This document shows, one piece after another, positions 28,227 through 32,255 of a stretch of DNA of 33,137 nt (its first letter is position 1; each line of letters opens with the position of its first letter). The notes under the pieces were generated by a model. The model was given only the letters and a program-made list of their open reading frames with translations, ran no database searches and had not been told where the DNA came from. A program made the translations under genes and the position numbers. This stretch comes from Oscillospiraceae bacterium (GTDB lineage Bacteria > Bacillota > Clostridia > Oscillospirales > Oscillospiraceae), in the NCBI GenBank assembly GCA_021203045.1, contig JAJQBY010000102.1:1-33137 (forward strand), read 5' to 3'.

Positions 28227-28323
28227 AGCTTTATCCTGATATATAGAAACAAATTATCCAATAGTCTCCCATACTACCGCCCGCTGGCGGTGTATACTGC
28301 TGCACAAAGCACGACTGCTAAAT

Positions 28324-28484
28324 AAGCCTCGCAGAGTTCGCCGCCGCAGCGGCGAATAGAGTTGGATTATTTTTTGCCGCGGCGTGTACGTGGCAAAAAA
28401 TTCTTCTCGGCCCGGGAGTGTGCGAGCGCAAGCGAGTGCGCGGGTCGGGCCGATGCCCCTTCATCTGCGATTGTATCGCAGATG
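28324..28484 (-). repeat. Structured 3'-UTR repeat, copy A
   Basis: A 161-nt element read on the minus strand, starting 2 nt after the stop of the YhaO-type gene. Modules in order: a 10-bp hairpin (28462-28471 / 28475-28484); a 93-nt core (28461 to 28369) holding a GC-rich CGGCCCG/CGGGCCG stem-loop and an ATTTTTTGCC...GGCAAAAAAT stem; an 8-bp hairpin with TGCG loop (28337-28356); and CTCTGCGAGGCTT. The core matches copy B at 92 of 93 positions; the end hairpins differ in sequence but keep their pairing. Not a standard terminator. No open reading frame in it is credible. Confidence 0.9.
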
Positions 28485-28486
28485 AT

Positions 28487-29590
28487 TTATGGCAGGGGCG
28501 GTTCCTCCCCGTTTTCCAGAGCCTGAAGGCCGAACCGGGCCGCAAGGCTTATCCGCGCCCGCTCCGGTCCCTCCGGGGCGGCCTGATACTGCGCCCACAA
28601 TCTGGCCAAAAACAGCCCCCGCAGGCTGTCCTGCTCCCGGCCCTCCCAGATATCCCGCCGGGGGCGGGTCTCATCCCGCAGCTCCAGGGCAAAAAATCGT
28701 CCCTCCAGCGCACGGGTCAGGGCCGCCCGGTCCGGGGCCTGATCTGTCTCTCCGGTCAGCCGTATACGATATATGTCCCGGGCCGTATCCCGGCAGAGGG
28801 CCTCCTCCACGGCGGCCAGGGGGTCCCGGTCCGTCACGTCCACAGAGAGAAGCTCATACCGCCGCCCGTCCATGGGAAGCTGCTCTATCCGGCAGGCGCC
28901 CGGCTCCAGCTCGGCCAGAATGACCCCCTTCTGCCCTGTCTCATCAAAGCCCCGGCCCTCCGGACAGCCCGGCCAGGCATAGACGGTGCTCCCCGCCAGG
29001 CGGGGGCCGCTGTAGCTGTGGATATGGCCCAGGGCCGCATAATCCATGCCGCTGGCGGCAAGCTCCGATTCCGTGATGGCTCCATAAGGGGAGTCCGGGT
29101 CTCCCACCTCTCCGTGGAGCACCAGGATATCCGTCACCCCCGGGACCTTTTCCGGGGGACGGAAGCCGGCCAGGGGCGGATTTCTGTGATGACCGGTGAA
29201 GGCCGCGCCGAATATCCGGGCGTTCAGCTCCGGCAGCGGGACGCATTGGATATCCTCCCCGGTGAATACATGTACATTCTCCCCCAGCCGCAGGCCGGAC
29301 CAGGGAGAGCGGGGGCCGTACCAGTCGTGGTTCCCGGGGGCGATGAACACAGGAACGGCCATCTCCGCCGTCACCGCCTCGATGAGCCGGGCGGTCTCCG
29401 CAAAGGCGTTATCCGAATCGAACAGGTCCCCCGCAAAAAGGACCATATCCACCCGCTCCTCCCGGACGATGGCGGCCATGCGCTCCAGCAGGGTGCGCTG
29501 CTCCGCCCGCCGCTGGGCGGAGCGCTCCCGGCCCAACGCCTGAAAGGGAGAATCCAGATGCAGATCCGCCGCATGAAGAATGCGTATCAT
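28487..29590 (-). CDS. YhaO/SbcD-like DNA repair exonuclease (metallophosphoesterase)
   Basis: A 367-aa Mre11/SbcD-type nuclease. The five phosphoesterase motifs are visible: HAADLHLDS (Asp9, His11), FAGDLFDSDN, APGNHDWYG, LHGEVGDPDS and LGHIHSY. A capping domain follows at about 240-367. With the YhaN-like ATPase downstream it forms the Gram-positive YhaO-YhaN pair, equivalent to SbcCD for processing DNA ends. The ATG overlaps the ymdB stop by 4 nt (ATGA), so the two are translationally coupled. Confidence 0.9.
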   Translation of the reverse strand: MIRILHAADLHLDSPFQALGRERSAQRRAEQRTLLERMAAIVREERVDMVLFAGDLFDSDNAFAETARLIEAVTAEMAVPVFIAPGNHDWYGPRSPWSGLRLGENVHVFTGEDIQCVPLPELNARIFGAAFTGHHRNPPLAGFRPPEKVPGVTDILVLHGEVGDPDSPYGAITESELAASGMDYAALGHIHSYSGPRLAGSTVYAWPGCPEGRGFDETGQKGVILAELEPGACRIEQLPMDGRRYELLSVDVTDRDPLAAVEEALCRDTARDIYRIRLTGETDQAPDRAALTRALEGRFFALELRDETRPRRDIWEGREQDSLRGLFLARLWAQYQAAPEGPERARISLAARFGLQALENGEEPPLP

Positions 29591-30366
29591 AGAATTCTCA
29601 TAGCCTCCGCCTTCACACAGAGGCCCGTCTCCGTATCGATATCAAACAGACAGCACTCCATCTTTCCCGGCCCGTTCCCCGAGCGGTAGCGTCTAGGCGG
29701 GTCGCCCAAAAATTTATTGATGGACTGCTCCACATCTATCCCCAGGACGCTGTAGGTAGCTCCGGTCATGCCCAGATCGCTGATGTAGCCCGTTCCCTTA
29801 GGAAGAACGGCCGCATCGGAAGTCTGCACATGGGTATGGGTGCCCCACACGGCGCTGACCCGTCCATCCAGGAAATAGCCCATGCCCAGCCGCTCGCTGG
29901 TGGCCTCGGCGTGCATATCCACCAGGATGATCTTCGGCTTCGGGTCAAGCTCCTTCAAAAGGCAATCCACCTCCACAAACGGGTTGTCCGTATTGGTATC
30001 CAGGGTGAAGCGCCCCAGGGCGTTTATGACGCATATCTCCCCGAAGGGGGTGCGGTATACCCCAAAGCCCCGGCCGGGACACAGGGGGGCATAATTGATG
30101 GGCCGCAGGACACGCACGTTGTCCGCCAGATAGGGCTGAAGCTCCCAGCGCACCCAGGTGTGGTTTCCCAGGGTGATGACGTCCGCCCCGGCGGCCAGGA
30201 TACGGTCGCACTGCTGGGGGGTCACGCCCACCACATTGGCGTTTTCCCCGTTCACCACCACAAAGGAGGCCCCCAGCTCCCGCCGGAGGGTCCGCAGACG
30301 GTTTTCCAGAAAGGTGAGGCCGGGGGCGCCGCAAACGTCCCCCACGGCCAGAATGCTGATTATCAT
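29587..30366 (-). CDS. ymdB: YmdB-type metallophosphoesterase (TIGR00282)
   Basis: A 259-aa phosphodiesterase of the YmdB family, which hydrolyses 2',3'-cyclic nucleotides (and some 3',5'-cAMP) and influences biofilm and sporulation decisions in Bacillus. Metal residues: Asp10 (AVGDV), Glu41/Asn42 (NGENAN), Asn68/His69 (LGNHTW), VDMHAEATSE and WGTHTHVQTSD; ISDLGMTG is typical of the family. RBS AAGGAG precedes ATG 30366. First gene of an operon with the YhaO-type nuclease. Confidence 0.94.
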   Translation of the reverse strand: MIISILAVGDVCGAPGLTFLENRLRTLRRELGASFVVVNGENANVVGVTPQQCDRILAAGADVITLGNHTWVRWELQPYLADNVRVLRPINYAPLCPGRGFGVYRTPFGEICVINALGRFTLDTNTDNPFVEVDCLLKELDPKPKIILVDMHAEATSERLGMGYFLDGRVSAVWGTHTHVQTSDAAVLPKGTGYISDLGMTGATYSVLGIDVEQSINKFLGDPPRRYRSGNGPGKMECCLFDIDTETGLCVKAEAMRIL

Positions 30367-30466
30367 GCTTTGCTCCTTGAGAGGCCGTCAGGCCCCTGAA
30401 ATTTTTTCATGTATTAAATATATCACAACACGACGGGAAATACTAGCGGTGAAAGAGGGGTAAAGT

Positions 30467-30628
30467 ATGAACAAATTGTCATTTTTTAAGGGCGTCGGCA
30501 TCGGATTGATGGTCGGCTCCGTAGTGGGGATGGCGGCCGCGCCCCGGAAAAAGAAGATGAACATCGGCAAAGCCCTGCGGTCCATGGGCGACGTGATGGA
30601 CAATGTGGCCGGCAGTATAGGGCTTTAA
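30467..30628 (+). CDS. 53-aa YtxH-like small membrane protein
   Basis: A small protein, MNKLSFFKGVGIGLMVGSVV followed by GMAAAPRKKK and an amphipathic tail (MNIGKALRSMGDVMDNVAGS). One glycine-rich hydrophobic helix (about 8-25) then a basic patch resembles YtxH-type stress-related small membrane proteins, though it is too short for a firm family call. RBS GAGGGG lies 8 nt before ATG 30467. Its stop codon is inside the first hairpin of repeat copy B. Divergent from ymdB. Confidence 0.7.
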   Translation: MNKLSFFKGVGIGLMVGSVVGMAAAPRKKKMNIGKALRSMGDVMDNVAGSIGL

Positions 30629-30796
30629 TCAGATAAAAAGCGAGTTTTTATCTGATTAAAGGGGCAGCGGCCCGACCCGCGCACTCGCTTGCGCTCGCAC
30701 ACTCCCGGGCCGAGAAGAATTTTTTGCCACGTACACGCCGCGGCAAAAAATGATCTAATTTTATTTGCGCCTGCGGGCGCAAACTCTGCGAGGCTT
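30624..30796 (+). repeat. Structured 3'-UTR repeat, copy B
   Basis: A 173-nt element in the sense of the 53-aa gene. Modules: a perfect 16-bp hairpin (30624-30639 / 30645-30660) that contains the gene's stop codon; the 93-nt core (30659-30751); an 8-bp hairpin with TGCG loop (30764-30783); and CTCTGCGAGGCTT. Against copy A the TGCG-loop hairpin has three compensatory pair changes (C-G to T-A, C-G to G-C, G-C to C-G) and no unpaired change. After GGC a T-run and a CCCC/GGGG hairpin follow, so transcription may stop there. Confidence 0.9.
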
Positions 30797-30883
30797 TTTC
30801 CCCATAAGGGGAGAGTCAACGGGCGTGTATAAGGGATTAACAGAAAAATTTTTTCCGAAAATATATTTTTTCTAAACACCCCC

Positions 30884-32082: not shown

Positions 32083-32104
32083 ATTGGTTTTTCACCTCCT
32101 GAAA

Positions 32105-32215
32105 TAAAAAATGTCCTTGTCCAAAGAGACAACGGCACACAGAAAGATGCAGTATTAAGCGATTCATCTGATGTCCTCGGCGGGTCTTACGCCCGAAGGC
32201 CGCCTGCTGTCTTTG
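32105..32215 (-). ncRNA. L10 ribosomal-protein leader RNA
   Basis: The rplJ leader matches the L10-leader pattern: GACAGCAGG near its 5' end, the kink-turn region with GACCCGCCGAGG, and a 3' TTGTC/GACAA hairpin followed by TTTTTT before the rplJ RBS. L10 (with L12) binds it to repress the operon when not assembled into ribosomes. Confidence 0.9.
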
Positions 32216-32226
32216 AACAGTTATGT

Positions 32227-32255
32227 ATGATAGCATAGTTTCCCGGCAGTGTCAA
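32227..32255 (-). promoter_or_regulatory. rplJ-rplL sigma-A promoter
   Basis: Minus strand TTGACA, 17-nt spacer, TATCAT, just upstream of the L10 leader. Confidence 0.85.

Follow-up and report, generated by a model that had tools for sequence, protein, structure and literature searches.

Two copies of a hairpin chain

The window, i.e., the whole stretch of 33,137 nucleotides analysed (contig JAJQBY010000102.1 of the Oscillospiraceae bacterium assembly GCA_021203045.1), harbours two copies of a chain of hairpins, copy A on the minus and copy B on the plus strand, which probably belong to a family of mobile palindromic repeats. In a repeat search of the window they form the single long inverted pair (28321-28461 vs 30659-30799; 141 nt, 91 % complementary). 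Alignment of both copies confirmed the 93-nt core (30659-30751 in copy B) with one mismatch reported in the original prediction, as well as the neighbouring hairpin with TGCG loop (P4), the stem arms of which (TTCGCCGC/GCGGCGAA in copy A, TTTGCGCC/GGCGCAAA in copy B) differ in three pairs on both sides. The gene positions likewise bear out that each copy follows a stop codon in the sense of its upstream gene: copy A begins 1 nt past the stop of the gene at 28487-29590 (minus strand), and the first hairpin of copy B encloses the TAA stop (30626-30628) of the short gene at 30467-30628.

While the two copies as such are real, their description had to be amended in two respects. An extra 5' hairpin (P1), entirely different in sequence between copies A and B, adjoins the stop codon and extends the element, and the three compensatory changes are shared more widely, since both versions of P4 (A-type and B-type) reappear in further copies of the same genome. 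The complete element (~170-200 bp) consists of P1, which is free in sequence, followed by P2, P3, P4 and P5. A covariance model (R1) was built from 39 copies with P1 left out; its core matches are included in the following list of the parts of both copies and their upstream genes.

30623..30794, plus strand: copy B, P1-P5 (R1 core match 30661-30794, 153.2 bits)
30623..30661, plus strand: copy B P1, copy-specific free hairpin including the TAA of the upstream gene
30668..30712, plus strand: copy B P2, stem CGGCCCG/CGGGCCG round the CGCAC..GCAC frame, the frame being filled by an exchangeable inner hairpin (P2b) in many copies
30719..30751, plus strand: copy B P3, hairpin TTTTTTGCC..CG-TACACGC-CG..GGCAAAAAA with highly conserved loop and covarying stem
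30764..30783, plus strand: copy B P4, covarying hairpin with TGCG loop
30784..30794, plus strand: copy B P5 (3-bp hairpin CTC-TGC-GAG) and 3' end CTCTGCGAGGC, followed by a T-run at 30795-30799
28326..28485, minus strand: copy A, P1-P5 (R1 core match 28326-28459, 145.2 bits)
28461..28485, minus strand: copy A P1, TCATCTGCGAT/ATCGCAGATGA, 1 nt past the stop codon
28408..28452, minus strand: copy A P2 and inner region
28369..28401, minus strand: copy A P3
28337..28356, minus strand: copy A P4, TGCG loop
28326..28336, minus strand: copy A P5 and 3' end
28487..29590, minus strand: gene 5' of copy A, calcineurin-like phosphoesterase (Pfam PF00149)
30467..30628, plus strand: gene 5' of copy B, 53-aa protein without Pfam match

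The P1 arms of copy A were found again in four copies of the same genome (L003, L009, L015 and L006). The phosphoesterase upstream of copy A is read here as an SbcD-like exonuclease; a copy in Vescimonas fastidiosa (476883-477030) comes after a gene ending at 476846 that is annotated as 'DNA repair exonuclease'. From its appearance, we take the 53-aa protein upstream of copy B to be YtxH-like.

Spread of the family and placement at gene ends

With copy B as query, copy A was retrieved at E = 1.2e-52, 17 places of the genome at E < 1e-20 and 21 at E <= 1, and the search of this genome and its relatives with R1, as originally proposed, yielded 18 matches in the own genome and positive results for 32 members of a set of 295 genomes of the order, the own one among them. 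The highest numbers of R1 matches were obtained for two 1.9-Mb genomes from a different family within the order (94 in G066 and 73 in G089); R1 had 17 matches in G027 and zero in G041 and G068. The 860-kb replicon of Vescimonas fastidiosa carries 40 matches at E <= 0.01 (34 at E <= 2e-11). Of 99 genomes queried with the DNA of copy B, 46 (that of the window among them) had a match and the other 53 had none; the copy numbers per genome from this search are lower bounds, since at most ~8 candidates were scored for each. Named carriers are mostly metagenome-assembled genomes (MAGs) of Oscillospiraceae, but comprise also Candidatus Scatomorpha and MAGs labelled Ruminiclostridium, Ruminococcaceae, Clostridiales or Clostridia. 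The Vescimonas replicon (NZ_AP023416.1) was deposited as plasmid pMM35_01; it is chromosome-like, since rpoB, rpoC, gyrA, recA, tuf and large ribosomal protein operons are encoded on it. Pieces of the element are also present in five unannotated fecal phage records (MT836333.1, MT836293.1, MT835783.1, MT835961.1 and MT838885.1), and seven IMG/VR contigs (L239-L245) carry the pattern of P3, which may possibly indicate a route of transfer.

In line with the original prediction, in which the element was not recognised as a named family, comparison with Rfam gave no family at gathering score, and the best overlap in a relaxed search (E up to 10) reached 22.1 bits vs a cut-off of 70. No description was found in the open-access literature either, most subscription papers and supplements being outside the scope of this survey, so that absence from print is not shown; the hairpin repeats of gut Oscillospirales are apparently an undescribed family.

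Across the family, P2 is formed by a 7-bp stem enclosing the CGCAC..GCAC frame and contains an exchangeable inner hairpin in many copies. The TACACGC-type loop of P3 is highly conserved while its stem swaps pairs, and P5 consists of 3 bp round TGC, terminating in GCGAGGC. Unpaired segments are conserved in the alignment as well. The printed copies end with the base of P1 at one side and GCGAGGC at the other, without a GTAG tetranucleotide; inspection by eye revealed no general terminal inverted repeat, apart from TGTCGAAAAA/TTTTTTGACA complementarity in Vescimonas-type copies. A T-run follows GAGGC in many copies and is absent from many others. No known transposon end was recognised among these features, a systematic search for transposon ends not having been made.

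For analysis of the genomic context, genes were predicted with a codon-usage gene finder seeded from Vescimonas, the results of which matched the Vescimonas annotation in the single stretch compared by eye. No copy among the 241 distinct ones placed in this way was called within a gene; in the Vescimonas annotation, one copy overlaps with a small hypothetical gene (376926-377105). Copies in tandem gaps are strongly oriented with the upstream gene in the genus of the window (49 sense, 1 antisense; 36 and 1 distinct sites after grouping of similar upstream flanks), L048 and L050 being left out of the genus placement counts as members of other genera. Sense to antisense ratios in the remaining groups, which include copies at orthologous sites, are 21:4 in G066/G089, 23:3 in other contigs, 13:7 in Vescimonas and 3:0 in G056. 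The strand bias with respect to upstream genes that was to be tested according to the original prediction is therefore pronounced in the genus, and the outcome envisaged there as contrary (random orientation without covariation of the TGCG stem) is not what was observed, with a ratio of 49:1 and a stem covariation that is real (see below). Divergent gaps contain two copies in the genus, six in G066/G089 and four in Vescimonas. The annotation of Vescimonas, read by eye for 31 copies, places 18 of them in tandem gaps (13 sense, 5 antisense), 4 in divergent and 9 in convergent gaps; a further copy, at 201343, is located in a convergent gap as well. Where upstream genes are named, they are mutually unrelated.

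As regards the distance from the stop codon, P1 begins at -9 to +7 nt in 44 of the 49 tandem-sense copies of the genus and in 20 of its 22 convergent ones, corresponding to 49 among 55 distinct sites; no such anchoring exists in G066/G089. P1 was determined with a finder that favours Watson-Crick stems, biases P1 pair counts and often picks an inner hairpin in G066/G089. At the other end of the element, a possible in-frame start codon is located 3-10 nt after GCGAGGC in 15 of the 49 tandem-sense members of the genus group (L048 and L050 included), in some cases as an alternative to the predicted start. With such spacing, GAGG would be a ribosome-binding site, and the GAGG in the P5 end of copy B could serve as one.

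Pairing, turnover and nested repeats

In alignment A6 (103 distinct copies), 29 of the 30 modelled pairs display two-sided changes, a result reached by none of 500 shuffles. The number of cells with such changes (415) exceeds the 104 expected from shuffles, and partners slid out of register score far worse. A6 leans towards the structure because it was fitted to the model; the covariation of the TGCG stem (P4) is nevertheless real. The original prediction took a conserved core together with a covarying arm for a sign of selection, RNA being seen as its simplest target. Selection on the sense RNA should tolerate G-U but not A-C pairs. Among the 6,840 modelled cells of alignments A5 (137 distinct rows) and A6, however, 6,593 are Watson-Crick, 42 G-U, 48 A-C and 157 other, i.e., there is no excess of G-U. 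By comparison, 26 distinct tRNAs from this material yielded 501 Watson-Crick, 49 G-U and 0 A-C pairs, the tRNA caller itself favouring G-U, while 156 terminator-like hairpins collected by a strand-neutral rule yielded 1,839, 29 and 24, respectively. Since terminator-like hairpins act as RNA and yet have hardly any G-U excess, the test weakens the inference of an RNA without excluding it. The covariation observed here does not show selection as RNA, and this part of the original prediction, to which the orthologous copies described below lend no support either, is not upheld.

Several sites are filled in one species and empty in a congener, P1 being missing as well from those empty sites that were read by eye; the clearest cases are L182:5231 vs L043 and L181 vs L193. 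Orthologous pairs of the genus (n = 21), the upstream flanks of which are 91 % identical, are 81 % alike in P3-P5, compared to 80 % for non-orthologous pairs between genomes (n = 2,407; p = 0.14) and 84 % for pairs within a genome (n = 422; p = 1.7e-26). In a looser set of 39 orthologous pairs from all groups, P3-P5 are 78 % alike with flanks of 91 and 86 %, and fall below the less similar flank in 23 pairs. The turnover of the element is thus at least as rapid as that of its surroundings, with its pairs being kept, and concerted replacement or re-insertion is more probable than a slow course of compensatory changes in copies that stay in place.

Counted independently of P1, copies located between two similar hairpins amount to 9 of 34 in Vescimonas (controls 0/680), 5 of 41 in other contigs (controls 2/820) and 2 of 4 in G056 (controls 0/80). 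In several printed cases, the duplicated Vescimonas hairpins are terminator-like, with the upstream copy lacking a T-run; the L114 case has a T-rich arm. That P1 itself might be a copy of a local downstream hairpin was discarded for the genus group: only 2 of 83 copies (L048 and L050 included) reach score 22 vs 0.9 % in controls, one of the two being L185, where the element is clearly followed by another P1-like hairpin.

Candidate mobilisers were considered and rejected. Y1/RAYT transposases (PF01797) are encoded by 33 of the 99 genomes and IS110 by 5 of 10 genomes bearing the element, neither being found in G066 and G089 with their 94 and 73 matches. RVT_1 was found in 7 of 10 element-bearing genomes, not in G066, G089 and G027; given these gaps and the lack of an Rfam match, origin from a group IIC intron was dismissed as well.

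Some copies depart from the common architecture. In those of G066/G089 (e.g., L128, L131 and L142), the 5' part is expanded by a long bulged hairpin (TTCGCGGGAAATCGC..TTACCAATTTCCCGCGAA) preceding a second hairpin, and the CAMDZY MAG (L061, L064, L067, L075 and L076) possesses a P3 variant with TTTTTTGTGACG..CGCCGCAAAAAA. Three contigs of this MAG start within the element, suggesting that the element breaks assemblies. In L061, another palindromic insert splits a P3. A second, unrelated palindromic repeat (~62 bp, GGTAG end) is nested in copies L016/L018, L017, L031, L081, L097, L105, L106 and L110, either in the inner region of P2 or, in L105, after P4, and between AC and T where read by eye. 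This repeat was detected in 5 of 60 genomes, with 18 copies in G027; it resembles the GTAG-tagged REPs, which are reported from other phyla in the parts of PMC3733652 considered here. In the window, the sequence directly 3' of copy A (28272-28322, minus strand) by eye resembles a decayed GTAG-ended repeat (CACCGCCAGCGGGCGGTAG), and is absent among the matches of the search for this second repeat.

A scan for intrinsic terminators gave a weak 6-pair match in copy B, ending ahead of the T-run, and none in copy A; the whole region contains 4 matches vs 2.9 in shuffles. P3 of both copies includes an identical promoter-like match (9/12; 30724-30751 on the plus and 28396-28369 on the minus strand), as judged from the consensus. 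Elsewhere in the window, a ribosomal protein L10 leader (RF00557) was detected at 32097-32234 (minus strand) with 44.2 vs a gathering score of 44.

Interpretation and comparison with known repeats

The element occurs in high copy number, is missing from some orthologous sites of relatives, is homogenised within genomes and prefers gene ends in the sense of the gene. With a probability of about 0.6, it represents a new repeat family of Oscillospirales, palindromic, mobile and non-autonomous, which is tolerated at gene ends and in kind comes closest to YPAL/RU-2; of the three alternatives considered originally (stabilisation of 3' ends, a released RNA or a mobile palindromic element), the last fits best. 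Some enzyme acting in trans would read the hairpins as DNA, with intrinsic terminators or positions behind stop codons as insertion sites; the insertion would duplicate a hairpin on either side in Vescimonas and certain other lineages. The host would tolerate the element at gene ends since it can make up for what is displaced, with a stop codon in P1 and, as seen in a minority of copies, with GAGG in its final bases as ribosome-binding site of the next gene. Near-perfect pairing would be kept because imperfect copies fail to move or get replaced, and not for the fold of each mRNA, effects on mRNA ends possibly arising on the side. A more far-reaching reading, in which an undescribed mode of transposition guided by structure instead of sequence would bring the multi-hairpin element into gene ends in the gene's sense, behind stops or at terminators whose hairpin is duplicated, with own stop codon and ribosome-binding site and little cost for operons, is less likely than not.

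A number of observations weigh against a mobile repeat of this kind. No transposition event itself was witnessed, and Y1 transposase, RVT_1 and IS110 were all undetected in G066 and G089, the richest genomes. Orthologous P1 arms are slightly closer to each other than by chance (62 vs 53 %, p = 0.02). Hairpin duplication is zero in the genus of the window (0/79) and in G066/G089 little over background (2/75 vs 12/1,500 in controls). Exact abutment on stop codons also occurs at sites without a visible terminator in the empty relative, which targeting of terminators does not explain. A possible ribosome-binding site is rare in tandem-sense copies outside the genus (3/23 in other contigs, 0/13 in Vescimonas, 0/21 in G066/G089). 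Furthermore, the 49:1 sense bias, the conserved unpaired bases and the strand asymmetry of the loops in the genus (P1: AGA 11, TCT 1; P4: TGCG 60, CGCA 0) also suit a role as RNA.

These last observations lead to the alternative of a cis-acting RNA in the 3' untranslated region, which stabilises the upstream mRNA, separates the genes of an operon or is released, having spread by copying and being kept for its function as RNA. It would account for the covariation of 29 of 30 pairs, the sense bias in the genus, G066/G089 (21:4) and other contigs (23:3), and the proximity of P1 to the stop codon, the distance being at most 9 nt in 64 of the 71 genus copies that are tandem-sense or convergent. However, G-U is not in excess over A-C, the sense bias fades in Vescimonas (13:7), where 4 of 34 copies reside in divergent gaps, and the copies follow upstream genes that are unrelated where named. 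Moreover, orthologous sites may be empty and, where filled, P3-P5 are no closer than in non-orthologous copies and, in 23 of the 39 pairs, less alike than either flank. An RNA function is less probable than the mobile repeat but has a real chance of being what keeps the element. The sense bias and the stop-codon anchoring would equally follow if the element behaved like a short interspersed element (SINE), i.e., if it were co-transcribed with the upstream gene, ended in a U-run and were mobilised by a reverse transcriptase in trans. The T-run behind GAGGC in many copies and RVT_1 in 7 of 10 genomes agree with such retro-mobility, but many copies are devoid of a T-run, RVT_1 was not found in three genomes with 94, 73 and 17 matches (G066, G089 and G027), and G-U and A-C are equally rare, so that this route is improbable.

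The near-strict Watson-Crick pairing without strand preference and the many copies in small genomes could also reflect a chromosomal DNA site, e.g., a protein-binding or supercoiling palindrome residing in the least harmful gaps, with hairpins kept as cruciforms. A general chromosome site need not be oriented towards genes as strongly as this element, which is also patchy in occurrence (53 of 99 genomes without match), and this explanation is improbable. The lowest probability is assigned to homogenisation of inverted repeats by template switching at replication, which would generate covariation devoid of function and is described for yeast (PMC8604942). It fits the near-perfect Watson-Crick arms without G-U intermediates, a property shared by the terminator-like hairpins, and the loops of G066/G089, which are near-balanced with their reverse complements (GAA 12, TTC 9; AAA 11, TTT 7); at one orthologous site, the two species have GAA and TTC loops, respectively. 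However, the spacer inversion to be expected is rare in the genus (AGA 11, TCT 1) and in Vescimonas (TTC 11, GAA 1), and copy number, orientation and the conserved P3 loop would be left unexplained.

The mobile palindromic repeat favoured here suggests that strong covariation (29 of 30 pairs, 103 distinct copies) need not imply a functional RNA, homogenised mobile DNA being indicated by the balance of G-U and A-C together with the comparison of orthologous and paralogous copies. Pipelines that score covariation could log such families as structured RNAs. At the same time, the family offers a testable case of gene-end-directed insertion in little-studied gut bacteria, the mobiliser still to be sought. 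Its stop-codon anchoring in one genus and its hairpin duplication in other lineages are unusual features.

Among known repeats, ERIC (IRU/RU-1; 127 bp) is comparable as a small mobile element co-transcribed with genes and with orientation-dependent effects on mRNA (PMC2229807). In contrast to ERIC, the present element has neither TA termini nor a terminal inverted repeat of general occurrence as far as seen here, and no shared sequence is claimed. The REP/GTAG palindromes associated with RAYT are likewise numerous extragenic palindromes near coding regions with alternative complementary stem residues, and their termini often supply a stop (PMC3733652). The element described here is much longer, lacks a GTAG end and is most abundant in genomes in which no Y1 transposase was found; G-T pairs, often seen in REP stems according to the same source, are rare in it. 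BOX and SPRITE of Streptococcus pneumoniae are similar as interspersed hairpin elements, BOX encoding the stop codon of the preceding gene in 36 cases and SPRITE being enriched near the 3' ends of genes (PMC3049150). They differ in modules, ends and host group, and from the strong tracking of the upstream gene's orientation observed here in most groups.

The closest counterpart is YPAL/RU-2 of Yersinia (~168 bp), the likeness being one of description rather than of compared sequences. Differences exist in the hosts (Enterobacterales vs Bacillota here), in the duplications (3-26 bp for YPAL vs whole hairpins of ~25-42 nt here, in some lineages only), in the abutment of P1 on stop codons in the genus of the window and in the swapping of hairpins. 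In common with the present element, YPAL/RU-2 is of similar size, contains internal inverted repeats, is not A+T-rich, lacks TA termini and is known from filled and empty sites (section 11 of PMC2229807, citing De Gregorio et al. 2006). Its targets span or adjoin sequences of dyad symmetry according to the same section, which parallels the duplication of hairpins around the element in Vescimonas and some other lineages of Oscillospirales.

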